Source: Beijerinckiaceae bacterium (GTDB lineage: Bacteria; Pseudomonadota; Alphaproteobacteria; Rhizobiales; Beijerinckiaceae). Taken from it: a stretch of DNA of 60,083 nt. Below the pieces are notes generated by a model, which saw only the letters and a list, made by a program, of their open reading frames with translations, ran no database searches and was not told where the DNA came from. Shown one piece after another: positions 1 to 36,598 of the stretch. A program made the translations under genes and the position numbers. Location of the stretch: contig CANJVX010000015.1 in NCBI GenBank assembly GCA_947478405.1, forward strand, positions 1 through 60,083, in the 5' to 3' direction. Every line of letters starts with the position of its first letter. Positions within the stretch are counted from its first letter, which is position 1.

Positions 1-819
1 CACCGCGCCATTGCCCGGCAGGATGCCCAGAATGGCACCTGTGAGCGTCCCGCGCAGGATCGGGAAATAGGAGGCGCGGAAGTCCGCTTTTGTCGGCCAG
101 AGCCGGCCAATCGCGGCACGCACGACATCGCGCGTCTCCGGATTTTCCAGATTACGGACGATTTCGGCGAAGCCGAAAATGCCCATCGCCAGCACGGCGA
201 AATCGACGCCGTCCGACAAATCCTGGATGCCGAGCGTCATGCGCTCCTGACCTGTTTCAAGGTCAGTGCCGACCGTTGCCAGCAACAGGCCGAGCAAGAT
301 CATGCAAATCGCTTTGAGAATCGATCCACGCGCCAGCACGACGGCGAACACGAGGCCCATGATCATCAGCGAGAAATATTCCGCGGGGCCAAACAGCTGC
401 GCGAGCTTGGTCAGCGGCTTGCCGAGGGCGGCAATGAAGAGCGTTGCAACAGTGCCCGCGAAAAACGAGCCCATAGCTGCCATGCCGAGCGCCACGCCGG
501 CGCGGCCCTGCTTGGCCATCTGGTGACCATCGAGCACAGTCACGACCGACGTCGCCTCGCCGGGGATATTGACGAGAATGGCCGTCGTCGATCCACCGTA
601 TTGCGCGCCGTAATAAATGCCGGCCAGCATGATGAGCGCGCCCGTCGGATCAAAACCGAATGTAATAGGCAGCAGCATCGCAATAGTCGCGATGGGGCCC
701 ACACCCGGCAACACGCCGATCAGCGTTCCAACCATACAACCAACGAAACAGAGGAAAATATTGTTCAGCGTCAATGCGACGCCGAAGCCGAGAGCAAGAT
801 TGCCGAGAAAAGCTTCCAT
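1..819 (-). CDS. tctA: Tripartite tricarboxylate transporter large permease TctA (3' end outside window)
   Basis: Large membrane subunit of a TTT-family carboxylate transporter. It forms the cation-coupled channel in the inner membrane and receives substrate from a periplasmic TctC protein. The visible 273 residues start MEAFLGNLALGFGVALT and show the family's glycine-rich GVLPGVGPIATIAMLLP segment, then YYGAQYGGSTTAILVNIPGE, which is the TctA signature. Several hydrophobic helices follow. The gene runs off the left edge, so the C-terminal part of the roughly 500-residue protein is missing from view. It starts 18 bases after tctB ends and is almost certainly co-transcribed with it. The substrate is unknown; the two TctC proteins at 13113-15233 and the nearby catabolic genes suggest an organic or aromatic acid. 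Confidence 0.93.
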   Translation of the reverse strand, partial: MEAFLGNLALGFGVALTLNNIFLCFVGCMVGTLIGVLPGVGPIATIAMLLPITFGFDPTGALIMLAGIYYGAQYGGSTTAILVNIPGEATSVVTVLDGHQMAKQGRAGVALGMAAMGSFFAGTVATLFIAALGKPLTKLAQLFGPAEYFSLMIMGLVFAVVLARGSILKAICMILLGLLLATVGTDLETGQERMTLGIQDLSDGVDFAVLAMGIFGFAEIVRNLENPETRDVVRAAIGRLWPTKADFRASYFPILRGTLTGAILGILPGNGAV

Positions 820-837
820 GATGAAAAATTCTCCGGC

Positions 838-1344
838 TCAGAAAGGAAAGAACGGCTCAAGCAGCGTACCAATCACGGGGATCGGCAGGCGCAGAAGCGT
901 CTTGAAAAGAAGGATGCATATGGTGGTCATCGCAATGGAAAAGATCGTCGCTTCTTTCAGCTCGAACTCTTCGCTCGCCATCATGCCTATGATCATCGAA
1001 ACGGGACCAGCAATCACCAAGCCGCAGGTGCGGATGAGCAAAGCGAACAGGATGATTCCGCCGAATATGAAGAAGGGGCCACGCAGCGACCAGCGCTCCA
1101 GACGCGGGCCTTTTTCGAACAATGAGAAGATGACCATCATCAGGCCGCCGATGCCAAGCATCGTAACCAGCGCCAAGGGCAACATGCCAGGACCAAGCGC
1201 GCGCAGCGAACCGCGCGGCAGATCAAGACCCTGCCAATAGAAAAACAAGGCAACCGCCATCAGGAACAGGCCGGCGCCCAGCTCCTGCGCGGACTTGATC
1301 AGCCCTCGCGATTGGTCTTCGGACGGCGTAACCTGATCCGACAT
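838..1344 (-). CDS. tctB: Tripartite tricarboxylate transporter small permease TctB
   Basis: Small membrane subunit of the TTT transporter, about 168 residues with four hydrophobic segments, as usual for TctB (DUF1468). Examples are the segments around LFLMAVALFFYW and LPLALVTMLGIGGLMMVIF. The start at 1344 (MSDQVT) is preferred over an upstream in-frame one because GAGGAGGAT lies just upstream of it. It precedes tctA in the same operon. The charged N-terminus before the first helix is ordinary for the family. The family is clear; the substrate is not. Confidence 0.9.
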   Translation of the reverse strand: MSDQVTPSEDQSRGLIKSAQELGAGLFLMAVALFFYWQGLDLPRGSLRALGPGMLPLALVTMLGIGGLMMVIFSLFEKGPRLERWSLRGPFFIFGGIILFALLIRTCGLVIAGPVSMIIGMMASEEFELKEATIFSIAMTTICILLFKTLLRLPIPVIGTLLEPFFPF

Positions 1345-1501
1345 GCGTTCATCCTCCTCAAGCAACAAGGAGGACACGCAAGCGGCCCGCTTCGGGGCCA
1401 GCCATACATTATCCCCCTACAATTTTTTCGGCTCAATCTTAACCGCGTCTGCGACAATGCGCCATGCCCAAAGATGCTGGTCGACCAAAGTCGAATGCGC
1501 C

Positions 1502-4039: not shown

Positions 4040-4124
4040 CGTCATTGCGAGGAGCGTCAGCGACGAAGCAAACCAGTGGCCACACGTGAGGCTCTGGCTT
4101 GCTTCGCTTACGCTCGCAATGACG
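4040..4124. repeat. Dispersed palindromic repeat, copy A
   Basis: Imperfect inverted repeat. The left arm is CGTCATTGCGAGGAG and the right arm is CGCTCGCAATGACG, with inner arms around GAAGCAAACCAG / CTCTGGCTTGCTTCG. It lies between the convergent ends of the dienelactone-hydrolase-like gene and nadC, and it could act as a transcript end stabiliser or terminator for both. Confidence 0.8.
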
Positions 4125-4132
4125 ACGAAAAC

Positions 4133-4987
4133 TCAACCTATCTCGATATCCAAACCCAAATCCAGAATCGGCGCCGAATGTGTCAGCGCGCCCGATGAAA
4201 TCAAATCGACGCCCGTCTCAGCAATTTCTTTCACGCTGCCACGATTGATGCCGCCAGATGCTTCCAGCTTCACATGGCCCTTGGCCATAGCAACCGCCTC
4301 GCGCATCTGCTCCACCGACATATTGTCGAGCAAAACAAAATCCGCCCCCTCAGCAATCACTTCGCGCAGCTGATCAAGCGTATCGACTTCGATCTCGACT
4401 TTCACCAAATGCCCAGCCGCCGCTTTCGCCGCACGCAGAGCCGCGCGAATGCCGCCCGCAACCGCAATGTGATTATCCTTGATGAGCACCGCATCATCGA
4501 GACCGAAGCGATGGTTCATCGCGCCGCCACAGCGCACGGCATATTTTTCAAAAGCGCGCAGATTGGGCGTGGTCTTGCGCGTGCAGCAAATCTTCGCATT
4601 GGTATGAGCGACCAGCGCCACAAATTCCGCCGTCATCGTCGCAATGCCCGACAAGCGGCAGGCATAATTCAAAGCCACACGCTCAGCCGTCAAAATCGCC
4701 CGCGCATTGCCCTTGATGCGGGCGACCGGCGTTTTCGCCGGCACATGCGCGCCCTCTTGCACCAGCGGCTCAAACGACAATTTCGGATCAATCAGACGAA
4801 ACGCAGCCTCCGCCAAAGGCAGGCCGCAGACCACACCGCCCTTGCGCGCAGCCATGACGGCAGAGGCCTGCATGTCAGCCGGGATCGTCGCCATGGTCGT
4901 GATATCGCCAGCGTCACCCAAATCTTCATCCAGTGCGGCACGCACGGCATTTTCGAGCAGGATCGGATTAAAGAAGGCCATGGTCAT
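4133..4987 (-). CDS. nadC: Nicotinate-nucleotide diphosphorylase (carboxylating), quinolinate phosphoribosyltransferase
   Basis: Converts quinolinate and PRPP to nicotinate mononucleotide, CO2 and pyrophosphate in NAD synthesis. The length of 284 residues is normal. Family signatures seen are DEDLGDAGDITT near the N-terminus, ALNYACRLSGIAT, the substrate-binding TRKTTPNLRAFEKYAV followed by GGAMNHRFGLDD, and the barrel residues around VLIKDNHI and VEIEVDT. The ModD paralogue is less likely because the gene is not next to molybdate genes. It is the last gene behind reductase, dehydrogenase and MarR genes, 29 bases after the regulator. nadA and nadB are absent here. In phthalate operons an extra copy of this enzyme offsets inhibition of NAD synthesis by phthalate, which fits this placement. 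The alternative start at 4981 is two codons in. Confidence 0.95.
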   Translation of the reverse strand: MTMAFFNPILLENAVRAALDEDLGDAGDITTMATIPADMQASAVMAARKGGVVCGLPLAEAAFRLIDPKLSFEPLVQEGAHVPAKTPVARIKGNARAILTAERVALNYACRLSGIATMTAEFVALVAHTNAKICCTRKTTPNLRAFEKYAVRCGGAMNHRFGLDDAVLIKDNHIAVAGGIRAALRAAKAAAGHLVKVEIEVDTLDQLREVIAEGADFVLLDNMSVEQMREAVAMAKGHVKLEASGGINRGSVKEIAETGVDLISSGALTHSAPILDLGLDIEIG

Positions 4988-5016
4988 GGATGTGGTCCCA
5001 AAGAAAATCAGATTGT

Positions 5017-5580
5017 TTATTTACGCGATGGTTGCGCGCTAGACAAACGCCCCGCGACTTCACGCGTGGAGGGGATCCGGCGATTGTCGCCCGCAGCCTG
5101 CGCCTCGTCACGCGCCAGATTGTCGATCATGGCGAGCAGCGCCTTGCGCATCGCGATAATCTCGCGCTCCTCCAAGCCTTCGACAGCAATGGCATTGACC
5201 TCTTCGGCCAGCGGCACCAGCTTGTCTTTCAGCGAATGACCGAGCGGGGTCAGATGAATGAACACCTGCTTGCGATCACCGGGCTTCTGGCGGCGCTCGA
5301 CATAGCCAAGCTTTTCCATCGCCTTCACAGCCGAAAAAGTGGTGGGCTCCATCACACCCGCCATATCCGACAAAGCGCGCTGCGCCATGCCATCGCCATT
5401 CCACAAGATGCGCAAAAAGGTCCAATGACCGAAGGACACGCCATGTTCAGCCAAGCGCATTTGCAAAGCGCGGCCCAAGCCACGCGATGCATCTTTGATG
5501 AGATGGGCGAGGCGATCATCAGGCACGGATTCGCGCCAATGATGCTGGATGACTTGTGCGAGATTGCTGCGCTTGGTCAT
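5017..5580 (-). CDS. MarR family transcriptional regulator
   Basis: 187-residue winged-helix regulator of the MarR/SlyA type. The core runs from about residue 25 to 150. The recognition region is MAQRALSDMAGVMEPTTFSAVKAMEKLGYVER, and the wing carries the family's DRK element in KPGDRKQVFIHLTPLG. Its ATG overlaps the stop of the dehydrogenase gene (ATGA), so the two are translationally coupled. It probably represses the divergent oxygenase operons: two CTTAG-N4-CTAAG palindromes, close to the SlyA box, lie at both ends of the intergenic region at 7757 and 7943. The ligand is likely the aromatic acid or a pathway intermediate. Confidence 0.92.
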   Translation of the reverse strand: MTKRSNLAQVIQHHWRESVPDDRLAHLIKDASRGLGRALQMRLAEHGVSFGHWTFLRILWNGDGMAQRALSDMAGVMEPTTFSAVKAMEKLGYVERRQKPGDRKQVFIHLTPLGHSLKDKLVPLAEEVNAIAVEGLEEREIIAMRKALLAMIDNLARDEAQAAGDNRRIPSTREVAGRLSSAQPSRK

Positions 5581-6761
5581 GGCAAACCCACCTGATGCTG
5601 CAGAGTGATCTCGCGGCCCTCACGTGCTGATTGCAACAGCGCGAGGCAGACTTCCATCGTCGCCAGTGACCATTCACCAGAATGCAGCGGCGCCACATTG
5701 TCAAACACAGCGGCGACCAGCTCATCCGTCACTTCACTGCGCGGAACTTTGGGGGGATCAAGCGCCAGAAATTCTTGCGCTGCATCGCCATAGATGCGCA
5801 CACCATCACCAAAGGCACGCAGATCACCGCGCTCGCAACTTGCCAACATAAAACCGAATGTCTGGTGCTGGCGTGCATTCAGATCAGATAGGTCGGCATA
5901 AGCAGAACCGCCATAATTACGCGCATTTTTCAGCGCCGATTCTTCCGCCAGATTGCCCGAAGCCAAAATGGCTTTGCGCGCAGCACCATAATTTTTCGGA
6001 TCTTTTTTCAGACCCAATTCATTCGTCCAGTCGAGCCATTCATCACTGTCAAAATGCGCATAACCGGAATAGGTCATGGTCGCGCTGACACCATTTTCAA
6101 ATGTCAGAAACGCATTATAAGCGCCTTCCGTCGGCCGATTGGCATCCCATACGCCTGTCATGGCGCGCACAGATTTCACACGCCCGCCTGCAATGAGGCG
6201 GATCATCTCCACCTGATGGGGCGCCTGATTGTAAATAACGCCACCGCCTTGCGCGGTGTCGAGTTCTTCCGGCCGGCGTGGACGAAACATGAAATCGGTA
6301 AAATTCATCGCCGTGATCATGCGCAAAGCGCCAAAAGCGCCGCTAGAAACCAGCTCGCCCATTTTACGGATCGGTGCATCGAAAGAATGACTATGCCCAA
6401 CGATCAGATGCACGCCCGCCTTGCGCGTAGCCTCGATCATCGCCTGACAATCAGCCAGCGACAAAGCCATGGGCTTTTCAACCAGCACATGCTTGCCATG
6501 CGCAGCAGCGATCGCCACTTGCGGTGCGTGAAATTGATGGGGCGACGCAATGTAAATCGCATCCACCTCGCTCGCACACAGCTCTTCCAGGGAAGCAAAA
6601 GCACGCGCGCCAAAATCCTGCGTAAAACGTGCACGCGCTTCCTCGCGCGGATCAAAACCCGCCGCAACATGAATGCGCGGATCATCCCGAAAGGTCGGGA
6701 TCATGAAAGAAAAGGCGCGGCCAATGCCTGCAATGCCGAGTTTCAAAGGCCGCGCGCTCAT
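5577..6761 (-). CDS. Gfo/Idh/MocA family oxidoreductase, candidate aromatic cis-dihydrodiol dehydrogenase
   Basis: About 394 residues. The N-terminal Rossmann domain begins LKLGIAGIGRAFSFMIPTF. It has the family motif VLVEKPMALS near residue 95 and a C-terminal alpha/beta domain. Phthalate 4,5-dihydrodiol dehydrogenases (Pht4/OphB) belong to this family. The position directly after a phthalate-dioxygenase-type reductase gene supports that kind of role: oxidation of the cis-dihydrodiol with reduction of NAD(P). Two starts are possible. A GTG at 6773 overlaps the reductase stop. An ATG at 6761 has GAGGA upstream and is preferred. The stop overlaps the MarR start. The substrate is inferred from context only. 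Confidence 0.87.
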   Translation of the reverse strand: MSARPLKLGIAGIGRAFSFMIPTFRDDPRIHVAAGFDPREEARARFTQDFGARAFASLEELCASEVDAIYIASPHQFHAPQVAIAAAHGKHVLVEKPMALSLADCQAMIEATRKAGVHLIVGHSHSFDAPIRKMGELVSSGAFGALRMITAMNFTDFMFRPRRPEELDTAQGGGVIYNQAPHQVEMIRLIAGGRVKSVRAMTGVWDANRPTEGAYNAFLTFENGVSATMTYSGYAHFDSDEWLDWTNELGLKKDPKNYGAARKAILASGNLAEESALKNARNYGGSAYADLSDLNARQHQTFGFMLASCERGDLRAFGDGVRIYGDAAQEFLALDPPKVPRSEVTDELVAAVFDNVAPLHSGEWSLATMEVCLALLQSAREGREITLQHQVGLP

Positions 6762-6769
6762 GTCATTCC

Positions 6770-7729
6770 TCACAGGTCGATCACGATATCGCCGCCCATC
6801 GCACGCGACACGCAGACCATAATATTGCCGGCTTTCTCATGATCGGAAAGCACAAGATCACGATGGTCAACGGCGCCCGAGACGAGCTTCGTCTTGCAGG
6901 ACCCGCAGGACCCACTCTCGCAAGAGAAAGAAATATCATGGCCATGTGCACGCAGCACTTCGAGAATGGTTTGGCCCACCGGCACATCATAGACCGCGCC
7001 CGTCTTGGCAAGCCGCACGGTGAAAGGCACATCTTCCGCTTTGGTGATCGCACCGGGCGGCGTGAAATCTTCAAAATGCACTTTGGCGGTTGACCAATGC
7101 CCGGTCATATCGCGCACAGCCTCCATCAGCCCGCGCGGGCCGCAGCAATAAAGATGCGCCGCACCGGGCTTTTCCACCACTGGCCAGAGATCAAAAGCTT
7201 TATCCGGATCGCCCTCATCATGGTGGATCGTCACCATGCCGCGCAGCTCAGGTGCTTTCAACTCATCCAGAAAAGCCGTCATCTCGGGTGAGCGTGTGAG
7301 ATAATAGAGTTTGAATTTCGTCGTGCCCGCAGCACGAACCCATTTGATCATCGACAGGATCGGCGTAATGCCGATGCCGCCCGCAATGAAAACATATTGC
7401 GGCGCGCTCACCAGTTCAAAATCATTGCGCGGCGCGGAAACCAAGATATCGTCGCCGATCTTGGCATGGTCGATCAGGCTGATCGAGCCACCACGCCCGC
7501 CCTCTTCACGCTTAACGGCGATGCAATAGCGGGTGCGCTCTTCGGCATCATTGCAGAGCGAATATTTGCGCACGTCGCCATTGGGCACGCGCAAAGAGAC
7601 ATGGGCGCCGGGCATGAAAGACATAAGCTCACCGCCATCGGGCTTTTTCAGCTCGAAATATTCAATGCCATCGGCCGCCGGCCTTTTGTCCGTAATCCGC
7701 AAAGCCTGCTTCAGCTCATCCACCGCCAT
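6770..7729 (-). CDS. PDR/VanB-type oxygenase reductase (FMN, NAD, [2Fe-2S])
   Basis: Electron-transfer partner of a Rieske oxygenase, 319 residues. It passes electrons from NADH through flavin to a plant-type ferredoxin centre. Domains in order: a flavin-binding barrel with RKYSLCND, an NAD domain with YVFIAGGIGITPILSMI and the YCCGPRGLM motif, and a C-terminal ferredoxin domain with CESGSCGSC and a later Cys in MVCVSRA. The order flavin, NAD, ferredoxin is that of phthalate dioxygenase reductase. The ATG at 7729 follows GGAGAGG. It is the first gene of the leftward operon and lies opposite the oxygenase gene, with a promoter and a MarR-type palindrome between them. Confidence 0.93.
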   Translation of the reverse strand: MAVDELKQALRITDKRPAADGIEYFELKKPDGGELMSFMPGAHVSLRVPNGDVRKYSLCNDAEERTRYCIAVKREEGGRGGSISLIDHAKIGDDILVSAPRNDFELVSAPQYVFIAGGIGITPILSMIKWVRAAGTTKFKLYYLTRSPEMTAFLDELKAPELRGMVTIHHDEGDPDKAFDLWPVVEKPGAAHLYCCGPRGLMEAVRDMTGHWSTAKVHFEDFTPPGAITKAEDVPFTVRLAKTGAVYDVPVGQTILEVLRAHGHDISFSCESGSCGSCKTKLVSGAVDHRDLVLSDHEKAGNIMVCVSRAMGGDIVIDL

Positions 7730-7754
7730 CAACCCTCTCCGTACCCACCCGACT

Positions 7755-7783
7755 TACTTAGAAGGCTAAGGATATTTGTTCAA
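7755..7783 (-). promoter_or_regulatory. Promoter of the reductase-dehydrogenase-marR-nadC operon
   Basis: On the minus strand TTGAAC (7783-7778) is followed after 17 bases by TAAGTA (7760-7755). The palindrome CTTAGAAGGCTAAG lies between the two boxes and overlaps the -10, which suits repression. The -10 match is moderate. Confidence 0.5.
7757..7770. promoter_or_regulatory. MarR/SlyA-type operator 1
   Basis: Perfect inverted repeat CTTAG-AAGG-CTAAG. The core TTAG-N4-CTAA matches the layout of the SlyA box (TTAGCAAGCTAA). It sits 28-41 bases upstream of the reductase start and inside the candidate promoter. Its probable ligand is the MarR protein encoded at 5017-5580. Confidence 0.72.
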
Positions 7784-7795
7784 GGGACCTGCCCC

Positions 7796-7882
7796 CTCAT
7801 TGCGAGCGGGGCGAAGCCCGACGCGGCAATCCAGAGGCCGCGCGTGAGGCTTCTGGATTGCTTTGCTGGCCTCGCAATGACG
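7796..7882. repeat. Dispersed palindromic repeat, copy B
   Basis: The left arm is TCATTGCGAGCGGGGCGAAG and the right arm ends CTCGCAATGACG, with inner arms GCAATCCAGA / TCTGGATTGC. It lies inside the divergent promoter region between the reductase and oxygenase genes, so here it cannot be serving only as a transcript terminator. GGGACCTGCCCC and GGGGCACCTGCCCC flank it on the two sides. Confidence 0.8.
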
Positions 7883-7905
7883 GTGCAAAGGGGCACCTGC
7901 CCCCG

Positions 7906-7934
7906 TGGACAAGCCCGCGCCGCCCCGCTATGTT
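7906..7934 (+). promoter_or_regulatory. Promoter of the Rieske oxygenase operon
   Basis: TGGACA (7906-7911), a 17-base spacer, then TATGTT (7929-7934). Transcription would begin near 7941, directly at the second MarR-type palindrome (7943-7956). Bound repressor would cover the start site. Confidence 0.55.
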
Positions 7935-7942
7935 GGCGGAAA

Positions 7943-7956
7943 CTTAGAGAGCTAAG
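7943..7956. promoter_or_regulatory. MarR/SlyA-type operator 2
   Basis: Perfect inverted repeat CTTAG-AGAG-CTAAG, the same arms and spacing as operator 1. It is 17-30 bases upstream of the oxygenase start. The pair, one at each promoter of a divergent region, is strong evidence for control by one dimeric regulator. Confidence 0.72.
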
Positions 7957-7972
7957 CAAGTCGAGGAACGCC

Positions 7973-9277
7973 ATGCTCACGAAAGAGGAAAACGATCTCC
8001 TGTGCCGGGTCGAAGGCGATGCGCCCGCTGGCCAGATCATGCGCCGCCATTGGCTGCCCGCTTGCCTCATTGAAGAAGTGCCCGAGCCCGATTGCGACCC
8101 TCTAAAACTGCGCCTGCTCGGCGAAGATCTCGTCGTCTTCCGCGACACCGAAGGCCGTGTCGGCATTTTGGACGAACTCTGCCCGCATCGGCGCGCCTCG
8201 CTGGTCTTTGGCCGCAATGAAGAATGCGGCCTGCGCTGCCTCTATCACGGCTGGAAAATCGACGTCGACGGCAATGTCGTTGAAATGGCCTCCGAGCCTG
8301 CGGGCTCAACCATGACGGAAAAGGTTAAGCACAAGGCCTATCCGGTGCGTGAAGGTGCGGGCTTTGTCTGGGTCTATATGGGCCCCGCCGAATCCATGCC
8401 GGAATTTGAGCCGCCCGTGTTCCAGCCCACGCCTGAAACACGCGTCTCCATTGCCAAGTTTCACATCGATTGCAATTGGGCGCAGATTCTGGAGGGTGCG
8501 ATTGATAGCGCCCATTCCTCGTCACTCCACTCTTCCGACATGGTGCCAGCGCGTGTGCCCGGTGCTGCCGCCACCGACACAAACTGGCTGCGCCCCTCCA
8601 CCGACAAAGCGCCGCGCATGCAAGTGCAGCGCACGTCTTTTGGCTTTCGCTATGCGGCGATCCGCAAGCCCATCGCCAATCCGCAGACGCATGATTACAT
8701 CCGCACAACCTTGTTCATCGCGCCCTATACTGTGCTCATCCCGCCCAACAATCTCTACAATGTCGCCATTCTCCATGTGCCGACAGATGACACGCACACC
8801 GCCTTCCACTTCATTGCTTGGGGTGATGCGTCGACAACGCCGGCAACCGAAGAATGGCGCAAATTCCTGCATGCGCAGGTGGGCATTGATGTCGACAAAT
8901 ATTTCATCAAGGTCCGCACGCGCGCCAACAATTATCTGCAAGATCGCAAGGCGATGAAGCTCGGCAATTTCACCGGCATTCCGGGTATTCCCAACCAAGA
9001 CATTGTCATGTGGGAAACCATGGGGCCAATTGCTGATCGCACGCACGACCGATTAGGCGCCAGCGATCTCGCCATTGTCGAATTCCGCAAGCAGATGGTG
9101 GAGGCTGCCAAGACTTTTGCGGCCGGTGGCCCCGCCATTGGTACGCTGGAGCCGCGCATCCCGCACGCAAAGCTCATGTCCTTTGAGGGCGTGGTACCCA
9201 AGACCACCGATTGGCGCGTCATGGGCGTCACGCCCGAAGAAATGGCGCATGAGGCCAAATCTCAGGCGGCTGAATAA
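7973..9277 (+). CDS. Rieske [2Fe-2S] aromatic ring-hydroxylating oxygenase, phthalate 4,5-dioxygenase type
   Basis: Terminal oxygenase, 434 residues. The Rieske centre ligands are C70 and H72 (CPHRR) and C89 and H92 (CLYHGW). The mononuclear iron site is D178-SA-H181-SSSL-H186, the usual DxxHxxxxH. Length and opening resemble phthalate 4,5-dioxygenase rather than the two-subunit dioxygenases: no small beta subunit gene is present, as for phthalate-type alpha-only oxygenases. Electrons would come from the divergent PDR-type reductase. The ATG at 7973 follows CGAGGAA; the longer open frame upstream runs through the repeat and promoter and is not coding. The exact substrate is uncertain; an aromatic carboxylate is the best guess. 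Confidence 0.93.
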   Translation: MLTKEENDLLCRVEGDAPAGQIMRRHWLPACLIEEVPEPDCDPLKLRLLGEDLVVFRDTEGRVGILDELCPHRRASLVFGRNEECGLRCLYHGWKIDVDGNVVEMASEPAGSTMTEKVKHKAYPVREGAGFVWVYMGPAESMPEFEPPVFQPTPETRVSIAKFHIDCNWAQILEGAIDSAHSSSLHSSDMVPARVPGAAATDTNWLRPSTDKAPRMQVQRTSFGFRYAAIRKPIANPQTHDYIRTTLFIAPYTVLIPPNNLYNVAILHVPTDDTHTAFHFIAWGDASTTPATEEWRKFLHAQVGIDVDKYFIKVRTRANNYLQDRKAMKLGNFTGIPGIPNQDIVMWETMGPIADRTHDRLGASDLAIVEFRKQMVEAAKTFAAGGPAIGTLEPRIPHAKLMSFEGVVPKTTDWRVMGVTPEEMAHEAKSQAAE

Positions 9278-9359: not shown

Positions 9360-10889
9360 ATGCACGATATGGATGAGGAACACGACCACAACGCAATGTC
9401 GGATGAAGACAAGGCCGCCATGGCTGCCTGGATCTGGGCACAAGAATCAGTCGAGCTTAAAACAGTCGGCATCGACATCGGCTCATCCACCTCGCATTTG
9501 CTCTTTGCCAAAGTCACGCTGCAACGTGTCTCGCAAGGCCTCTCCGCCCGCTTTGTCGTGACGGGCCGCGAAGTGGTCTGGCGTTCACCCATCATGCTCA
9601 CGCCCTTCCTGCCCAATGGCATGATCGATGCCGCCTATCTGCAAGAATTCATCCGCGCCTGTTACCGCGATGCGCGCGTCAAGCGCGAAGATATCGACAC
9701 CGGTGCTGTCATTCTGACAGGCGAGGCCATCAAACGCGCCAATGCACGCGCGATTGACGAACTCTTCGCCGAAGAATCCGGCAAATTCGTCTGCGCCACC
9801 GCAGGCCATAAGCTTGAATGCACACTCGCCGCCCATGGCTCGGGCGCGGTTGCTTTGTCCAAAGCCAAAGGCGCTGTCGTTCTGCACGTCGACATCGGCG
9901 GGGGCACCACAAAGCTCGCGCTGATCGATAAGGGCATGATCCGCTCTGTCGCGGCTTTTGCCGTTGGTGGCCGTCTCGTCGCACATGATGGCAAGTCAGG
10001 TTGGACGCGCGTAGATGAATCAGCCGAGCTTGTGGCTGAGGATCTCGGGCTGCCAACAACTCCCGGTGCGCTGTCCAACGCCATGACGCGCAAGAAAATT
10101 GCTGTACGTCTTGCTGAACTGGCCATTGACCAGATCGTCAATGCGCCGCTCGACGAACTTGGCCACAAGATCGAACTCACTGAACCGCTCGACCGCACCC
10201 TCGCCCCCGAAATTGTTACCTTCTCAGGTGGCGTGTCGGAATATATATTCGGAACAGAGACGCAGGAATTTGGCGACATTGCCATTCCGCTTGCTAACGC
10301 TATTCGAGATGGCCTGACGAAGCGCTGCACACTTCCGATCGAAGATCCCGGCAACCGCATCCGCGCAACTGTCATCGGCGCTTCCCAATTCACCGTGCAG
10401 GTATCTGGCAAGACGATCTATCTACCCAAGGATCAGACAGGCATTCTGCCCGTGCACAATATTCCAGTTGTGCAGATCGGCATGGATCTGTCGGATGACA
10501 TTCCCGCCGCAGATATCATCAAGCGCATTCATGAAAAAATGGCCGTGCTGGATCTCGAGCCCTCAGCGCGTTTGGCGATTGCTTTCCCTTGGCACGGCGA
10601 TCCGGAATATTCGCGTCTCTCTAATGCAGCTGCCGCCATCAAGGCTGCTGTTGCGCCCAATGGCAAACGTGAAAACACGCTCTGCCTGATGATCGATGGC
10701 GATGTTGGCCGCACCATGGGACGCCTGTTGCAAGATGAAGAAGGTGTCGAAGGCGCGGTTGTATCCATCGACGGCGTACAATTGCAGGAACTGGATTTCG
10801 TCGACATCGGTGAATTGATTTCACCGCCCGGCGTTGTGCCGGTGGTGATCAAATCGCTGCTCTTCGATAATCCTGCCAATCATCAATAA
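9360..10889 (+). CDS. EutA-like ATPase (ethanolamine ammonia-lyase reactivating factor family), orphan
   Basis: 509 residues with the actin/Hsp70-like ATPase signatures of the EutA family. Phosphate loop 1 is VGIDIGSSTSHLLF (about residues 36-49), phosphate loop 2 is LHVDIGGGTTKLALI (near 177) and the adenosine motif is TFSGGVSEYIFG (near 288). EutA normally reactivates cobalamin-bound ethanolamine ammonia-lyase. Neither eutB nor eutC, nor any B12 gene, is visible here. It is followed 20 bases later by a bicupin gene and then a racemase-fold gene. It may therefore act on a different partner enzyme in this catabolic locus. The acidic, His-rich N-terminus (MHDMDEEHDHN) is an extra tail. The family is fairly certain; the function is open. 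Confidence 0.82.
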   Translation: MHDMDEEHDHNAMSDEDKAAMAAWIWAQESVELKTVGIDIGSSTSHLLFAKVTLQRVSQGLSARFVVTGREVVWRSPIMLTPFLPNGMIDAAYLQEFIRACYRDARVKREDIDTGAVILTGEAIKRANARAIDELFAEESGKFVCATAGHKLECTLAAHGSGAVALSKAKGAVVLHVDIGGGTTKLALIDKGMIRSVAAFAVGGRLVAHDGKSGWTRVDESAELVAEDLGLPTTPGALSNAMTRKKIAVRLAELAIDQIVNAPLDELGHKIELTEPLDRTLAPEIVTFSGGVSEYIFGTETQEFGDIAIPLANAIRDGLTKRCTLPIEDPGNRIRATVIGASQFTVQVSGKTIYLPKDQTGILPVHNIPVVQIGMDLSDDIPAADIIKRIHEKMAVLDLEPSARLAIAFPWHGDPEYSRLSNAAAAIKAAVAPNGKRENTLCLMIDGDVGRTMGRLLQDEEGVEGAVVSIDGVQLQELDFVDIGELISPPGVVPVVIKSLLFDNPANHQ

Positions 10890-10909: not shown

Positions 10910-12016
10910 ATGTCTGACGATAAGCCGCGCTATGGCGTCGACCCCTATCTGAACTGGGTCGAAAAAGAAGGCCTGCCGGTCCACGAGGATTACGGGGTTG
11001 ATCTCTTCTCCGTTGAAACAAAGCCCTGGGCCCGTTATGGCGTGAAGGGTGCAGCTGTGCATCTGAAGGGACGCGGCGACTTCTCGAATATGTTCCTGTT
11101 TGATATTGGCCCTGGCCAATCAACGGCTCCGCAAAAACATCTCTATGAAGATGTGATTTATGTGCTGGAAGGCACGGGCTCGACGCAGATTGAGTTTGTC
11201 GATGGCACCAAGCGCTCGTTCGAATGGGGACCAAAAAGCCTCTTCGCCATTCCGCTCAATGCCACGCATCGTCATTTCAACGGGTCCGGCCGCGAACGTG
11301 CTTTGCTCGTCTCTACGACCAATCTGCCGATGATCATGAATGTCTTCCATGACGAAGATTTCGTGTTCAACACGGGACGCGACTTTATGGCGCGCGCTGG
11401 CAAGCAGGGCTATTTCTCGGGCGAAGGTGATCTCATCACGGTGCGTCCGGGTAATCACATGTGGGAAACCAATTTCGTGCCTGATCTGGCGGGCATTGAA
11501 TTGAAGAGCTGGGGTGATCGCGGAGCCGGTGGCACCAACATCATGTTCGTACTGGCTGATGGTATTATGCATGCGCATATTTCCGAAATGCCGGTTGGCA
11601 CCTATAAGAAGGGCCATAAGCATGGGCCGTCATTCCACGTCATGTGCGTCACCGGCCACGGCTATTCGCTGCTCTGGTATGCGCAGGAGAAGGATTTCAT
11701 CCGCATTGACTGGAAACATGGCACCGTCTTCCCGCCTGCTGACCAGCAATTCCATCAGCACTTCAACACCTCGACGGAGCCTGCGCGTTACCTCGCGACC
11801 GCTGTGGGTGGCCTGCGCTATCCCACTATGCTCTCGCAGCGCCGCTCGCTGATTGGCGTGAATGGTGAGAAGGGTGCGGTCTCGCTCTCCATCAAGGAAG
11901 GTGGCGACCAGATCGAATATGAAGATCAGGATCCGCGCATCCACCGCGAATGGCTGGACGAGATGAAAAAGAACGGTGTCACGCCGAAAATGGACAAGTT
12001 CGCCGTCGCTGTGTGA
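10910..12016 (+). CDS. Bicupin protein (two cupin domains)
   Basis: 368 residues with two cupin barrels. The first shows KHLYEDVIYVLEGTG and a later THRHFN; its first metal His is replaced by Lys, so it may bind metal poorly or not at all. The second, near residue 235, has HKHGPSFHVMCVTG and QFHQHFN, a complete set of histidines for a metal site. Gentisate-dioxygenase-like and related bicupins share this plan, but the overall sequence is not recognisably one of them. A GGGAG ribosome site precedes the ATG. It sits between the EutA-like and racemase-fold genes and is followed by a strong terminator. It could be a ring-cleaving dioxygenase or an isomerase for the oxygenase product. Confidence 0.8.
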   Translation: MSDDKPRYGVDPYLNWVEKEGLPVHEDYGVDLFSVETKPWARYGVKGAAVHLKGRGDFSNMFLFDIGPGQSTAPQKHLYEDVIYVLEGTGSTQIEFVDGTKRSFEWGPKSLFAIPLNATHRHFNGSGRERALLVSTTNLPMIMNVFHDEDFVFNTGRDFMARAGKQGYFSGEGDLITVRPGNHMWETNFVPDLAGIELKSWGDRGAGGTNIMFVLADGIMHAHISEMPVGTYKKGHKHGPSFHVMCVTGHGYSLLWYAQEKDFIRIDWKHGTVFPPADQQFHQHFNTSTEPARYLATAVGGLRYPTMLSQRRSLIGVNGEKGAVSLSIKEGGDQIEYEDQDPRIHREWLDEMKKNGVTPKMDKFAVAV

Positions 12017-12077: not shown

Positions 12078-12175
12078 CGTCATTGCGAGGAGGGCCAAAG
12101 GCCGGACGCGGCAATCCATGGCGCCCATCAAGAGAGATGGGTGCTATGGATTGCTTCGCTCCGCTCGCAATGACG
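12078..12175. repeat. Dispersed palindromic repeat, copy C
   Basis: The outer arms are CGTCATTGCGAGGAG and CCGCTCGCAATGACG. The inner arms are GGCAATCCATGG / CTATGGATTGCTTCG. It directly follows the terminator and precedes the racemase-fold gene. Confidence 0.8.
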
Positions 12176-12267: not shown

Positions 12268-13005
12268 ATGGGCTTTTCGAGTTGGCGTGGCACGCTTGGC
12301 ATGGTGCACCCTACATTGCGTCCGGGCTCGACCGAGGAATTCATCCGTCTCGCACCCGAAGGCATCGGCGTCATCCCGATGTTCCTCAACATCAGCCGTG
12401 GCACGCGCGATGAATTCGAAAAAGTCTTTTCTGCTTACGAAGACCAGATCAAGATTTGCGCCGATGCAGGCTGTGATCTCATTCACCCCTCCGGCGCGCC
12501 GCCCTTCATGGTGCAGGGTCTGAAGCGTGAAGCAGAAATCGTGAAGGGCTGGGAAGAAAAATTCGGCGTGCCGATTTTCACCTCGGGCCAGAACCATATC
12601 GCTGCGATGCGTGCGCTCGGCGCCAAGACCATTGTCGGCGCAACTTATTTTCCTGGTGACATCAACAATACATTCTCACGCTACTTTCAGGACGCGGGTT
12701 TTGATGTGAAGTGTATGGCAGGCATTGAAGTGCCCTTCGACCGTGCACAAGAACTCTCCGGCGAGCAGGTCTATGGCCACATCAAGAAAGCCTTCCTGAA
12801 ATCTGGCGGCGGCGATGTGATCTACATGCTGGGTTCGGGCTGGCGCGTGCTCAACATCATCCATATGCTCGAGCAAGATCTCGGCGTGCCTGTGATTCAC
12901 CCCGTGCCTGCGCGCGTATGGGAAGTACAACGCCGCCTGCATATCAACGAACCGAAGGCTGGCTACGGCAAGATTCTCGAAACCATGCCGCCTTTGCCGA
13001 AATAA
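12268..13005 (+). CDS. Asp/Glu racemase-fold protein (arylmalonate decarboxylase/maleate isomerase-like) without catalytic cysteines
   Basis: 245 residues. The sequence GVPIFTSGQNHIAAMRALGAKTIVGATYF, followed by a second half-domain with GWRVLNIIHMLEQDLGVPVI, matches the two-lobed Asp/Glu racemase, maleate isomerase and arylmalonate decarboxylase superfamily. By eye, the first catalytic-cysteine position falls in IHPSGAPPF (residues 72-80) and the second in YMLGSGWR (186-193). Neither holds a Cys. The enzyme may therefore use other residues or be a binding protein. The ATG follows GGGAGGA. It lies downstream of the bicupin gene, after a terminator, and upstream of two TctC genes. The substrate is unknown; a dicarboxylic acid is likely. 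Confidence 0.7.
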   Translation: MGFSSWRGTLGMVHPTLRPGSTEEFIRLAPEGIGVIPMFLNISRGTRDEFEKVFSAYEDQIKICADAGCDLIHPSGAPPFMVQGLKREAEIVKGWEEKFGVPIFTSGQNHIAAMRALGAKTIVGATYFPGDINNTFSRYFQDAGFDVKCMAGIEVPFDRAQELSGEQVYGHIKKAFLKSGGGDVIYMLGSGWRVLNIIHMLEQDLGVPVIHPVPARVWEVQRRLHINEPKAGYGKILETMPPLPK

Positions 13006-13112: not shown

Positions 13113-14156
13113 ATGAACGCCCGCGCGTCTCTTATATGCATGACAATCACTGCAACACTTATGGCTGGCGTAGTTCAGGCCCAGACAAATACTGCAGAAT
13201 CTTTTTTTCACGGAAAGACGATCAATGTTATTGTTCCGTTCACAGCCGGCGGACTCAATGATCTGGCCGCACGCCTTGTTGCGCGGCACATGCCTGGCTA
13301 TGTCACAGGCAAACCGGGCATGGTCGTCCAAAATCAGCCCGCGGCCGGCGGCCTCGCGCTCGCTAATCGTTTTGCCAATTCGGTGGAAAAAGATGGGCTG
13401 ACACTCTCGATCATGGGCCGCGCCTTGCCGCAGTTCCAGATCATGGGTGACGCCAATGCCAATTTTGATCCATTGAAATTCACTTGGCTTGGCTCTCTGT
13501 CCTCTTACGAAAACGATGCCTATCTTCTGCTACTCAACACCAACGCGCCGACCAAAAATGTTGCTGATCTGAAAAAGCCCGGACCTGCCGTGCCGCTAGG
13601 CGCCAATCGCACGGGTTCGGCCAATGTCACTTTTGCGCTGATTGCACGCGATGTTCTGAAACTCAATGTGCAGGTTGTGCGTGGATTTCCTGGCGCCAAT
13701 GATATTAATCTCGCCATGCAGCGCGGCGAAGTTGAAGGGCAGGCCATTGATCTGTCTGCCATTATCTCTAGCCAGCGTGAAATGTGGACATCGAAACAAG
13801 TGCGCCCAGTCGTTCAATTTGGCCGCATGACCCGCATGAAAGAATTGGCTGATGTCCCGACAGGGCGCGAGCTTGTCACCGATAAGGATGATCTGGCCCT
13901 ACTGGCCTTTGCAGAATTACCCTTCTTCATGGCGCTGCCCTTTGCCGGTCCACCTGATATCCCAGCCGATCGTGCGAGGGCCTTACGTGATGGCTTTATG
14001 AATATGACAAAAGATCCTTCATTTCTCGCAGATGCAGAAAGAATCGGTATCGACATCAGCGCTATTGATGGCGAAAAAGTACGCAAGTTGATCGAGGATG
14101 CCACCAAAACACCTCCTGATGTCCTTGCCAGGTTCAAGAAACTCGTTGCAGAATAA
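13113..14156 (+). CDS. Bug/TctC-family tricarboxylate-type substrate-binding protein (copy 1)
   Basis: Periplasmic binding protein, 347 residues, with an N-terminal signal peptide ending near VVQAQ. Family signatures are SFFHGKTINVIVPFTAGGLNDLAARLVARHMP, KPGMVVQNQPAAGG and RGFPGANDINLAMQRGEVEG. It captures a carboxylated small molecule and delivers it to TctA/TctB-type permeases. The nearest permeases in the window are at 1-1344. It is the first of a tandem pair with the next gene, separated by 24 bases. Many Bug proteins are orphans without a permease, so pairing with tctAB is only likely. No strong ribosome site is visible ahead of the ATG. Confidence 0.93.
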   Translation: MNARASLICMTITATLMAGVVQAQTNTAESFFHGKTINVIVPFTAGGLNDLAARLVARHMPGYVTGKPGMVVQNQPAAGGLALANRFANSVEKDGLTLSIMGRALPQFQIMGDANANFDPLKFTWLGSLSSYENDAYLLLLNTNAPTKNVADLKKPGPAVPLGANRTGSANVTFALIARDVLKLNVQVVRGFPGANDINLAMQRGEVEGQAIDLSAIISSQREMWTSKQVRPVVQFGRMTRMKELADVPTGRELVTDKDDLALLAFAELPFFMALPFAGPPDIPADRARALRDGFMNMTKDPSFLADAERIGIDISAIDGEKVRKLIEDATKTPPDVLARFKKLVAE

Positions 14157-14180: not shown

Positions 14181-15233
14181 ATGATCCGGCAAAAACTTCT
14201 GACAGCATTGGGAATTGCTGTTCTGGCAACAGGCTTTTGTTTTAGTGCGCAGGCGCAGGAAAGTGTTGAGAGCTTTTACAAAGGGCGCACCATTACGCTC
14301 ATTGTGCCAACCTCACCGGGCGGCATCAATGATATTTCCGGCCGACTTCTCTCACGCCATTTCGGCCGCTTTTTGTCCGGCAACCCAAGCGTCGTTGTGC
14401 AAAATGTTCCCGGTGGCGGCGGGCTCGTGGCTGCCAATAAACTCTATAATACATCGGAGCGTGATGGCTCGGTAATTTCGCTGATCCAGCGCGGCACGAT
14501 GCAATTGCAAATCCAGGGCAACAGCAACGCCAAATTTGATCCACAAAAATTCACGTGGCTCGGCTCTTTATCCTCCTACGCGGACGATGGCTATCTGTTG
14601 CTCGTCAATCATGACCACCCTGCCCAAACGGTGGCTGATTTACGCAAGAGCGGCATCGTTGCCAAACTCGGCGGCGATCAACCCGGCTCCACCAATCTGA
14701 CCTTCGCCGTCATTGCGAAAAATGTTCTAGGCCTGAATATCGATGTGGTGCGGGGTTATCCCGGCGCTGCACCCATGTTCCTTGCAATGGAGCGTCGCGA
14801 GCTCGATGGTCAGGTGATTGGCTATAATTCGGTGCGCGCAGGACAGCCCTCGCTTTGGAATGGCAAGAAAATGCGCCCGATCATTCAGTTCGGCCGCATC
14901 ACGCGACTGCCCGCCTTGCCCGATGTGCCCACCGGACGCGAGCTTGCTACAGATCCGCGCATGCTTGCTTTGGTGGAATTTGCCGAACTGCCCTTCTTCA
15001 TGGCTCTGCCATTCCTGGCTCCTCCGGGCCTTCCGGCAGATCGCGCCAGCGCCTTGCAGAAAGCCTTTGTCGGCATGGTCGCAGACAAGGATTTTCAGTC
15101 GGACGCTGAAAAAGTGAACCTTGAATTGTCACCCATCGACGGCAAGGCTGTGCTTGATCTCGTGGCACGCGCAGCCGCCACGCCGAAAGATGTCATCGCT
15201 CTCTATAATGAAATGGTGCCGGTCGGGCATTAA
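14181..15233 (+). CDS. Bug/TctC-family tricarboxylate-type substrate-binding protein (copy 2)
   Basis: 350 residues, with a signal peptide ending at SAQAQ. It has the same architecture as the preceding gene and shares long matching stretches with it (FTWLGSLSSY, DVPTGREL, AELPFFMALPF), so the two arose by duplication. The ligand-pocket region differs: VPTSPGGINDISGRL against VPFTAGGLNDLAARL. That could mean two related ligands. AAGGGAGAA precedes the ATG. It converges on the DUF971 gene with 9 bases between stops. Confidence 0.93.
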   Translation: MIRQKLLTALGIAVLATGFCFSAQAQESVESFYKGRTITLIVPTSPGGINDISGRLLSRHFGRFLSGNPSVVVQNVPGGGGLVAANKLYNTSERDGSVISLIQRGTMQLQIQGNSNAKFDPQKFTWLGSLSSYADDGYLLLVNHDHPAQTVADLRKSGIVAKLGGDQPGSTNLTFAVIAKNVLGLNIDVVRGYPGAAPMFLAMERRELDGQVIGYNSVRAGQPSLWNGKKMRPIIQFGRITRLPALPDVPTGRELATDPRMLALVEFAELPFFMALPFLAPPGLPADRASALQKAFVGMVADKDFQSDAEKVNLELSPIDGKAVLDLVARAAATPKDVIALYNEMVPVGH

Positions 15234-15872: not shown

Positions 15873-15960
15873 CGTCATTGCGAGCGAAGCAAAGCAACCC
15901 AAAGACCGCGGGTGTGGCTTCCTGAGTGCCGCGTTGGCCCTCGGCCTCCTCGCAATGATG
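15873..15960. repeat. Dispersed palindromic repeat, copy D
   Basis: The outer arms are CGTCATTGCGAGCGAAG and CTCCTCGCAATGATG. The inner parts are degenerate (GCAACCCAAAG / GTGTGGCTTCC). It sits in the divergent upstream region of the TusA-like gene and the WD40-cytochrome gene. Confidence 0.75.
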
Positions 15961-19324: not shown

Positions 19325-19412
19325 CGTCATTGCGCGGCGCAAGCGTAGCAATCCAGACAGCCACACGCGCGTACTCTGGATTGCTTCGTCGCATTCTCTC
19401 CTCGCAATGACA
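19325..19412. repeat. Dispersed palindromic repeat, copy E
   Basis: The outer arms are CGTCATTGCGCGG and CTCCTCGCAATGAC. The inner arms are GTAGCAATCCAGA / CTCTGGATTGCTTCG. It lies between the fdh operon terminator and mobB. Confidence 0.8.
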
Positions 19413-28598: not shown

Positions 28599-28700
28599 CG
28601 TCCTTGCGAGGAGCCGAAGGCGACGCGGCAATCCAGAAGCAAAATCCAAAAATGAACATGTCACTGCACTTTGGATTGCTTCGCTGCGCTCGCAATGACG
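28599..28700. repeat. Dispersed palindromic repeat, copy F
   Basis: The left arm is CGTCCTTGCGAGGAG and the right arm is GCTCGCAATGACG, with inner arms GGCAATCCAGA / TTTGGATTGCTTCG. It ends six bases from the stop of the DUF2019-like gene and may end that transcript. Confidence 0.8.
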
Positions 28701-34617: not shown

Positions 34618-36598
34618 GATTAAGCTCGTCATTGCGAGGAGGCCGTAGGCCGATTCGCAATGACGGAGCTGGAGTGAATCCTGCTGCAACAAGTGCATCT
34701 TGTGTCTCGGCTGAAGCGAGAGACGCCAAAAGCGCCTGCACCGCAGGCTTATTCTTGTGAGCACTCACCAACGCCAAGTCATAATGCTCTTGTGCAAAGG
34801 GCAAAAAAGCCAAGCCATAGGCCTCGGCCACAGGTGCAATCGTCATGCCCCAATCGGCGCGCCCCTGCGTCACGGCCGCCGCTACAGCATTATGCGCCTT
34901 GGGCTGATTCCAATAGCCTTCCGGCCTCACGCCAGCCAGCAATCGGTCCAGCAAAATGCGCGTGCCGGCCCCCGGATTGCGATTGACCATCAGACACTGG
35001 GGATCAGCAATTGCCTTGGCCACAGCCGAGCGCGCATCAAGCCCAAGAAAGCGCGCATCATCCTTTCGATAGACGATGCCCTGCATGCGGCGCCAGCCTT
35101 CAACCAGCTCCAGCCCCTCGCTCAGGAAGGGCCTGTTATAGGTCTCGCTCTTGTCATCAAACAGATGAATGGGCGCGACATCACATTCGCCGCGCTTGGC
35201 CGCTGCCAATCCACCAAGCGACCCCACTGCAATAATGCGCGTGGCAAAGCCGCCCTGCGCCACCGGCGCAATGGCAATATCAAGCCCTGTGCAATGCGAA
35301 CCAATGATGGTGAGATCAGGCACGCGCAAATGCGGCGTGAACAAAGTCACCTCTGCTTGCGTGCCAGAAGGCATATGGTCAGCCAAAGCATCAATGCGCA
35401 AGAAACCATCGGCCTGCGCAAAGCTCGTAATCGCGCCTGAACCTTTGCCTGTCGGATAGGCCAGCAGGCCATCCGCACCTTCAACCAGCGCAACCATGAC
35501 GAATTCAGCGCGGCCCAGTTCAGAGGCAATGCGCACCGGCACACGCGCCTCAACTTTCGCATCCTTGCGCGCGGGCAATCCTGCCATGCGGCGCAAGACG
35601 GGCACGATCATGTCATGAAACGTAAACATGGCTGACGTGGGAAAGCCGGGAAGAATCACCACGGGCTTGCCATCGCACACAGCCAGACACAAAGGCTTGC
35701 CGGGCTTTAGTGCGACACCGTGGGCAATAATGCCGGGCTTTCCTAGCCGTGCAATGATGCGATGGGTGAAATCGCCTGCACCCTTGGATGTCCCACCCGA
35801 CAAGATCAGCAGATCATGTTGGGAAAGTGCATCACGCATTGCGGCTTCAAGTGCAGCTTCATCATCGGCGACATGACCAAGAAAATGCGCCTTGCCACCA
35901 TTCTCATTCACTGCCGCAGTGACGATCGGCCCATTGGTATCGAATATCTGGGCAGGTGCGAGCGCACCACCTGGCTGCACCAATTCATCACCCGTCGAGA
36001 GAATGGCAACACGCGGTGTACGCGTAACGTTGATCTGCGCAATGCCACACGCCGCCAGCATGCCAATCTCACGTGCGCCCACCACCACGCCTGCGCGCAG
36101 CACGGTTTCCCCGCGCGCCATGTCGGTGCCAGCTGACGAGATGAATTGTCCGGGGCTGACAGCGCGGCGCACATCAATGCCACCAGCGACGGGTTGCGTC
36201 TGCTCGATCATGACAATCGCATCTGCCCCACGCGGCACGGGACCACCTGTGGCAATGGGCGTGGCCGTCATGGGTGATACACGCAATTTTGGCGCTATGC
36301 CGCAGGCAATCACTTCGTCATTCAGCTTCAGCCTCGAAGGGCTTGCTTCGCTGGCTTGCATCACATCAGCCGCGCGCAATGCAAAGCCATCGACATTAGA
36401 GCGATCAAAGGGCGGCACATCAATGGGGGCGCCTACATCTTGCGCCAGAGCGCGGCCCAAGGCTTGCTGCAAGCCGACGCGCTCGGTGAGTGTGGCGCGC
36501 GGAAACAGAACCGCATCAAATCGCGCCATAGCCTCTTCGCGCGAAAGAATGGTCAGGAACTGGTCCTGCGCGAGACTGGCATCGGGCTTTGTTGTCAT
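34604..36598 (-). CDS. MoeA fused to a C-terminal periplasmic-binding-like (PBP) domain
   Basis: 664 residues. Residues 1 to about 415 are a full Moe[60 protein letters not shown]. Residues from about 430 form a PBP-like domain ([74 protein letters not shown]) related to molybdate/tungstate-type binding proteins, but cytoplasmic. It may sense or hold the oxyanion for insertion. It overlaps the truncated MoeA-like gene by four bases and is last in the tup operon. The final codons are read through dispersed repeat copy G, giving an odd C-terminal tail ([14 protein letters not shown]). Confidence 0.9.
34627..34665. repeat. Dispersed palindromic repeat, copy G (short form, inside coding sequence)
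   Basis: Only the outer arms remain: CGTCATTGCGAGGAGG and ATTCGCAATGACG around a short GGCC-containing centre. The inner arms found in other copies are deleted. It lies within the 3' end of the MoeA-PBP gene and just after mobA. Confidence 0.78.

Follow-up and report, generated by a model that had tools for sequence, protein, structure and literature searches.

The window, by which we mean the whole stretch of 60,083 nt analysed here, comes from a Beijerinckiaceae bacterium and carries a ring-oxygenase locus with its own nadC gene. The genes in and around the locus are as follows.

1..1347, minus strand: a TctA-like gene, truncated by the contig end, and a TctB-like membrane gene (both labels putative)
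4133..4981, minus strand: nadC, encoding QPRT (carboxylating nicotinate-nucleotide diphosphorylase); TIGR00078, PF01729, PF02749
5017..5580, minus strand: MarR-family regulator, assigned by family scan and retained across related loci
5577..6773, minus strand: Gfo/Idh/MocA dehydrogenase with a GTG start and an ATG at 6764; top solved match 7wzd
6770..7732, minus strand: PDR-type oxygenase reductase with FAD, NAD and Fer2 domains; top solved match 2pia
7973..9277, plus strand: Rieske oxygenase with Rieske and LigXa_C domains, 533 bits; top solved matches 7fjl/7v25/7v28
9360..10889, plus strand: EutA-family protein, PF06277, below the NCBIfam EutA cut-offs
10910..12016, plus strand: two-cupin-domain protein of a family expanded in the genus, the second cupin domain assigned by inspection
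12268..13005, plus strand: arylmalonate-decarboxylase-like protein, PF17645, present in just part of the nearest loci
13113..14156 and 14181..15233, plus strand: two putative solute-binding genes, presumably TctC-type

The nadC product scores 332 bits against TIGR00078 (cut-off 198), with PF01729 and PF02749 also matched, and the ORF has an alternative ATG at 4987. A sequence-only reading of this DNA had placed the reductase, dehydrogenase, MarR and nadC genes in one direction, divergent from the oxygenase and joined by overlaps or short gaps. Both points were confirmed: the reductase gene overlaps that of the dehydrogenase by 4 nt when the GTG start is used, the dehydrogenase and MarR genes also overlap by 4 nt, and the gap between MarR and nadC is 29–35 nt. 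The EutA-family and cupin genes 3′ of the oxygenase, absent from that description, form the same neighbourhood in relatives. No oxygenase beta subunit was found among the neighbours scanned by family profiles, Pfam gave nothing for the product of 14181..15233 at 1e-10, and a promoter and terminator scan gave signals no stronger than those in shuffled sequence.

The search for related loci yielded 118 pattern hits, of which 98 were confirmed and 80 kept, some of them cut by contig ends. As the reductase, dehydrogenase and MarR gene clusters recur in 69, 66 and 63 of these 80 loci, respectively (window excluded), we reject a chance grouping of the genes. Locus L002, also from a Beijerinckiaceae bacterium, shares 99% identity with the window in the oxygenase and 100% in nadC. 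An element bounded by 12-base inverted ends, CGTCATTGCGAG, occupies intergenic sites in the window at 4040-4124, 7795-7882, 12078-12175, 15873-15960, 19325-19412, 28599-28700 and 34627-34665; its ends give 15 matches at no more than one mismatch, against 0.92 expected. Two copies flank the block from nadC to the reductase, and the element lies immediately downstream of nadC in 6 of the 14 related loci examined (L002, L003, L005, L007, L144, L147).

Comparison with solved structures points to phthalate enzymes. The oxygenase is best matched by 7fjl/7v25/7v28 (E 1.3e-208; 72.6% identity to 7fjl over 391 ungapped residues), the reductase by the phthalate dioxygenase reductase 2pia (E 3.8e-108) and the dehydrogenase by the 4,5-dihydroxyphthalate dehydrogenase 7wzd (E 3.8e-142). 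The title of entry 7fjl names only a Rieske domain protein, which we take to be PDO-KF1. Asp178, His181, His186 and Asp343 of this enzyme, presumably the metal site, are the same in the window's oxygenase. The residues of 7fjl agree with a passage of PMC12445078, in which S182, R207 and R244 of PDO-KF1 are the phthalate/carboxylate contacts, S182 and R207 are substituted in the isophthalate enzyme, and I256 is required for dioxygenation. Ser182, Arg207, Arg244 and Ile256 are all kept in the window's oxygenase, and in 83 aligned oxygenase ORFs the four positions are conserved, the exceptions being a single Thr at 182 and gaps where ORFs are truncated. The match to 9ina, which we take to be isophthalate dioxygenase, is far weaker (E 3.6e-59) and the contact residues follow the phthalate rather than the isophthalate enzyme, so isophthalate was rejected as the main substrate. 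Three features of a phthalate 4,5-dioxygenase system are present, namely an alpha-only Rieske oxygenase with the contact residues, a PDR-type reductase and a Gfo/Idh/MocA dehydrogenase, and the earlier assignment to a phthalate-type ring-oxygenase locus is borne out. Judged by homology and conserved residues, the locus would serve ortho-phthalate catabolism.

It is scarcely credible that the substrate is instead quinolinate or another pyridine dicarboxylate, with NadC competing with catabolism for it. Quinolinate does share the ortho-dicarboxylate geometry, but the identity to the solved enzyme, the identical contact residues and reductase, dehydrogenase and decarboxylase homologues that are all of the phthalate type argue against such a substrate. 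The same genome encodes a second oxygenase (L158, G000:C33:6379-7638), 68% identical to that of the window and with the same phthalate-contact residues. Its setting differs, with NMT1-like, SDR, molybdopterin-enzyme and UbiD-family genes nearby.

In the predicted pathway, oxygenase and reductase would convert phthalate to the cis-4,5-dihydrodiol, from which the dehydrogenase would form 4,5-dihydroxyphthalate; a decarboxylase encoded on another contig may then yield protocatechuate. No 4,5-dihydroxyphthalate decarboxylase gene was found within the window's locus. A decarboxylase-like gene cluster is represented in 42 of 81 loci (the 80 related loci and the window), and in sister Beijerinckiaceae loci this gene adjoins nadC. 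The window's genome (G000) has 15 matches to this decarboxylase (E up to 0.001), one with an inner stop, which in a 3 Mb genome suggests a broad set of related pathways. The best of them, G000:C11:38049-39023, shares 73% identity with the sister-locus enzyme (next 56%, partial; others at most 43%) and matches the solved 4,5-dihydroxyphthalate decarboxylase 9jp7 at E 9.2e-50. The intradiol-dioxygenase family has three matches in G000, two adjacent on contig C6 and one on C77, and the LigB family has two, on contig C27; these ring-cleavage families are candidates for the lower pathway. Because the decarboxylase homologue and the ring-cleavage families are found on other contigs, we favour a lower pathway that lies elsewhere over one that differs, the two options that the sequence-only reading had named.

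The same reading regarded nadC as an additional copy that protects NAD synthesis, as in Burkholderia cepacia DBO1. In the window's genome (a 3.03 Mb, 95% complete assembly) PF01729 matches in one place, the window's nadC. The nadA gene is on contig C2 with nadB adjacent and nadC absent there, and a search of the genome for a second nadC beside nadA/nadB, as expected of a DBO1-type accessory QPRT, found none. It is well supported that nadC is single copy in this assembly and lies apart from nadA-nadB. The reading had named as evidence against itself a nadC that is the only copy and always holds this position in non-degrading relatives: it is the only copy found, whereas its position is not shared by other genera of the family, in which no close oxygenase was found and nadC is mostly beside nadA.

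We searched 51 genomes of the genus with the window's NadC ('genus' and 'family' are the assignments of the genome search); the copy counts rest on draft genomes, many of them less than 90% complete. Matches were obtained in 47 genomes, of which 45 have an orthologue (65% identity or more), that of G027 lying in two pieces on two contigs. G010 and G025 have a divergent match only, and NadC gave no match at E 1e-6 in G008, G014, G016 and G029. In the protein search, 43 of the 45 orthologue-holding genomes showed no second nadC exceeding 50% identity across most of the protein. The second copies in G024 and G030 are 57–58% identical; in addition to the orthologue, G050 has a remote match (27%) and G020 a fragment. 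PF01729, the more sensitive query, gave a count of two for another 14 genomes of the genus apart from G024 and G030, the second match being weaker; these second matches may be remote family members, and the protein search finds something in only two of the 14, the remote match of G050 and the fragment of G020.

For copy counts in other lineages, 27 of the 80 loci were taken, mostly from named non-Beijerinckiaceae genomes, and places were compared by hand. A nadC linked to the locus is found in Halomonadaceae/Marinobacterium and Burkholderiales (L011, L012, L014, L017, L019, L022, L029, L030, L032, L040, L048, L049, L053, L072, L080 and a broken copy in L028), and all 16 genomes have a further nadC match elsewhere. 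The other 11 genomes comprise four without a nadC match and seven with at least one outside the locus. An additional nadC is the model that holds in those lineages. For the window it is very improbable, given one match in its genome and the rarity of second copies in the genus, and it is contradicted here unless the absent part of the 95%-complete assembly carries another nadC. A close oxygenase yet no nadC match was observed in G221, G222, G223 and G226 (loci L056, L057, L062, L081). In L028, from a Halomonas MAG, the nadC of the phthalate locus (about 16.4 kb; G211:C8:29403-29890) is in two pieces with a stop, with another copy elsewhere.

A close oxygenase (E up to 1e-120) occurs in 47 of the 50 relatives within the genus, in none of 69 family members from other genera and in 4 of 80 further members of the order. 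Oxygenase and nadC are on one contig, within 22.4 kb, in 27 of the 45 genomes with the orthologue (the window's included), and in the 26 relatives the distance ranges from 592 to 22,430 bases. In 15 of the other 18 genomes dehydrogenase, MarR, EutA, cupin or decarboxylase genes occur in the stretch around nadC; in G020, G021 and G023 no clear locus gene is near it except a TctC-like or remote (33%) decarboxylase-like gene. As the cupin is multi-copy and G006 and G042 show EutA alone near nadC, the link to the locus is weaker in some genomes. G018 (96% complete) has no close oxygenase match, and its nadC still has a decarboxylase homologue on one side and a MarR gene on the other. Among the matches listed (for nadC, to near E 2e-58), nadC and nadA are within 20 kb in none of the 42 genus relatives with both, a set that includes G025 with its divergent copy only. 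The two genes are no more than 10 kb apart in 85 of 95 genomes from outside the genus; for the family's other genera the count is 40 of 42, again among the matches listed.

The EutA-family gene is a frequent nadC neighbour in the genus, and EutA and/or cupin are often the nearest known neighbour, even with the oxygenase on another contig. This would fit a nadC that belongs with the EutA-family/cupin pair in a function unrelated to phthalate. We consider such a grouping improbable, as genes for the decarboxylase, MarR, dehydrogenase, reductase and oxygenase are intermingled with the pair in the same loci, and three cupin paralogue regions examined in G000 (L191–L193) contain neither EutA nor nadC. 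No common function was seen among the genes around these paralogues. Most genomes of the genus hold numerous copies of the cupin family; in G000, where 10 of 24 candidates were scored, there are at least 9, and of 149 non-genus relatives one has a match at E 1e-60. The AlphaFold model of the cupin protein has a mean pLDDT of 31, and its profile gives weak matches to RemF and gentisate dioxygenase. A plasmid search returned five records, four of which cover most of the cupin at 46–48% identity; three of these matches have no annotation beneath them and one is a hypothetical protein.

To trace the origin of nadC we used a quick maximum-likelihood NadC tree of 115 rows (104 different; SH-aLRT support only), in which some rows are one gene reached via two loci. 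Twelve locus numbers were marked for removal as duplicates, L121 was restored, and three genus rows, L138, L139 and L141, were given separate labels for second or divergent copies. All 47 locus rows of the genus fall into a single clade (SH-aLRT 95), which sits in a group with 9 of the 10 rows from other genera of the family (SH-aLRT 98); the tenth, L104, is placed outside it, together with the second copies found in G024 and G030. A separate group (SH-aLRT 99) holds the phthalate-locus nadC of Gammaproteobacteria and Burkholderiales. This topology is consistent with vertical inheritance and a subsequent move, and a recent horizontal gain was rejected, as the gene nests among nadC of the same family. 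Since members of the genus share one ancestry, their linkage counts as one event and not 42.

At least three gene orders are found in the genus while the nadC linkage persists. In the window type, reductase, dehydrogenase, MarR and nadC follow each other in the same direction. In the sister type, EutA-cupin-decarboxylase-nadC is tail to tail with the oxygenase. In the third (L121, L123, L143, L145, L151, L153), nadC converges on cupin-EutA and does not follow catabolic genes; because of these six loci, co-transcription is not general in the genus.

These orders bear on a neutral relocation, in which nadC would have come to lie next to the phthalate locus through a single rearrangement in the ancestor of the genus and remained there with no functional coupling. 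The single clade, hence a single event, is what it would predict, and a nadC convergent with cupin-EutA resembles a separate transcription unit. We hold it to be on the unlikely side but still a serious rival. Against it stand the persistence of linkage across three or more gene orders and the separate joining of nadC to phthalate loci in Gammaproteobacteria and Burkholderiales.

The NadC protein itself is a full-length QPRT above the family cut-off with the motifs TRKT and NHR, which we take to be catalytic and which are kept in all 48 aligned genus rows. Two columns are genus-specific relative to the family, neither within TRKT or NHR, and the alignment of the 48 rows gives no sign of an altered pocket. 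Therefore an adaptive placement, if real, would more likely work via expression than via resistance. NAPRTase was found in 0 of 51 genus genomes (30 of them at least 90% complete), in a search that was positive in 6 of 14 controls. In a passage of PMC4726147, the Kd of human QPRT is 5.2 µM for phthalic acid and 4.8 µM for quinolinate, and QPRT is said to enhance growth of DBO1 on phthalate, though it is not required for phthalate metabolism (a passage of PMC6051330, citing Chang and Zylstra, 1999). Given the binding to the human enzyme, the growth benefit in DBO1 and the lack of NAPRTase matches, NadC is probably essential in the genus and phthalate is likely a real problem for it.

Taken together, we consider it on balance probable that this is an ortho-phthalate locus in or beside which the sole, vertically inherited nadC settled after leaving the nadA-nadB(-nadC) cluster, likely offsetting the occupation of NadC by phthalate. 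Phthalate, a close mimic of quinolinate, would occupy NadC during uptake, and NadC made together with the catabolic enzymes would compensate. By analogy, the placement may sustain NAD synthesis against phthalate inhibition; the adaptive reading draws on this analogy and on recurrence, and nadC co-transcription, induction by phthalate and a benefit to the cell are what it would predict. More tentatively, and with slightly less than even confidence, we suggest that the whole genus moved its only QPRT gene from the NAD operon into the phthalate locus, tying an essential biosynthesis to a catabolic programme: protection by capture, not duplication. With no NAPRTase salvage gene detected, the consequences of NadC being inhibited by phthalate should be greater in this genus than in the classic case, and this greater dependence makes the protection idea from DBO1 testable.

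The association of QPRT with phthalate degradation is already known, and the move of the sole gene is the variation seen in this genus. Titles and abstracts on nadC/QPRT with phthalate, or on Beijerinckiaceae with phthalate and Rieske, gave no report of such a relocation (most subscription literature being outside this scope), and a search on freshwater Beijerinckiaceae and aromatic compounds found no literature. Like the window, Burkholderia cepacia DBO1 has a QPRT gene tied to phthalate degradation; there it is reportedly an additional copy, whereas the window's is the only nadC found and lies away from nadA-nadB. Sphingobium yanoikuyae SHJ, with the pht genes phtB, phtC, phtD and phtR, is likewise an alphaproteobacterium with a MarR regulator, a dehydrogenase and a QPRT gene at close locus tags, but its cluster includes the decarboxylase that the window's locus lacks (passages of PMC6051330). 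The Halomonadaceae/Marinobacterium and Burkholderiales loci also combine an oxygenase of the same family with nadC, but their NadC is 40–46% identical to the window's, belongs to another branch and is additional to another copy. A biosynthetic gene inside a catabolic locus is not necessarily an accessory copy, and two routes appear to lead to one association: an added nadC in Gammaproteobacteria and Burkholderiales, and a moved sole nadC in this genus.
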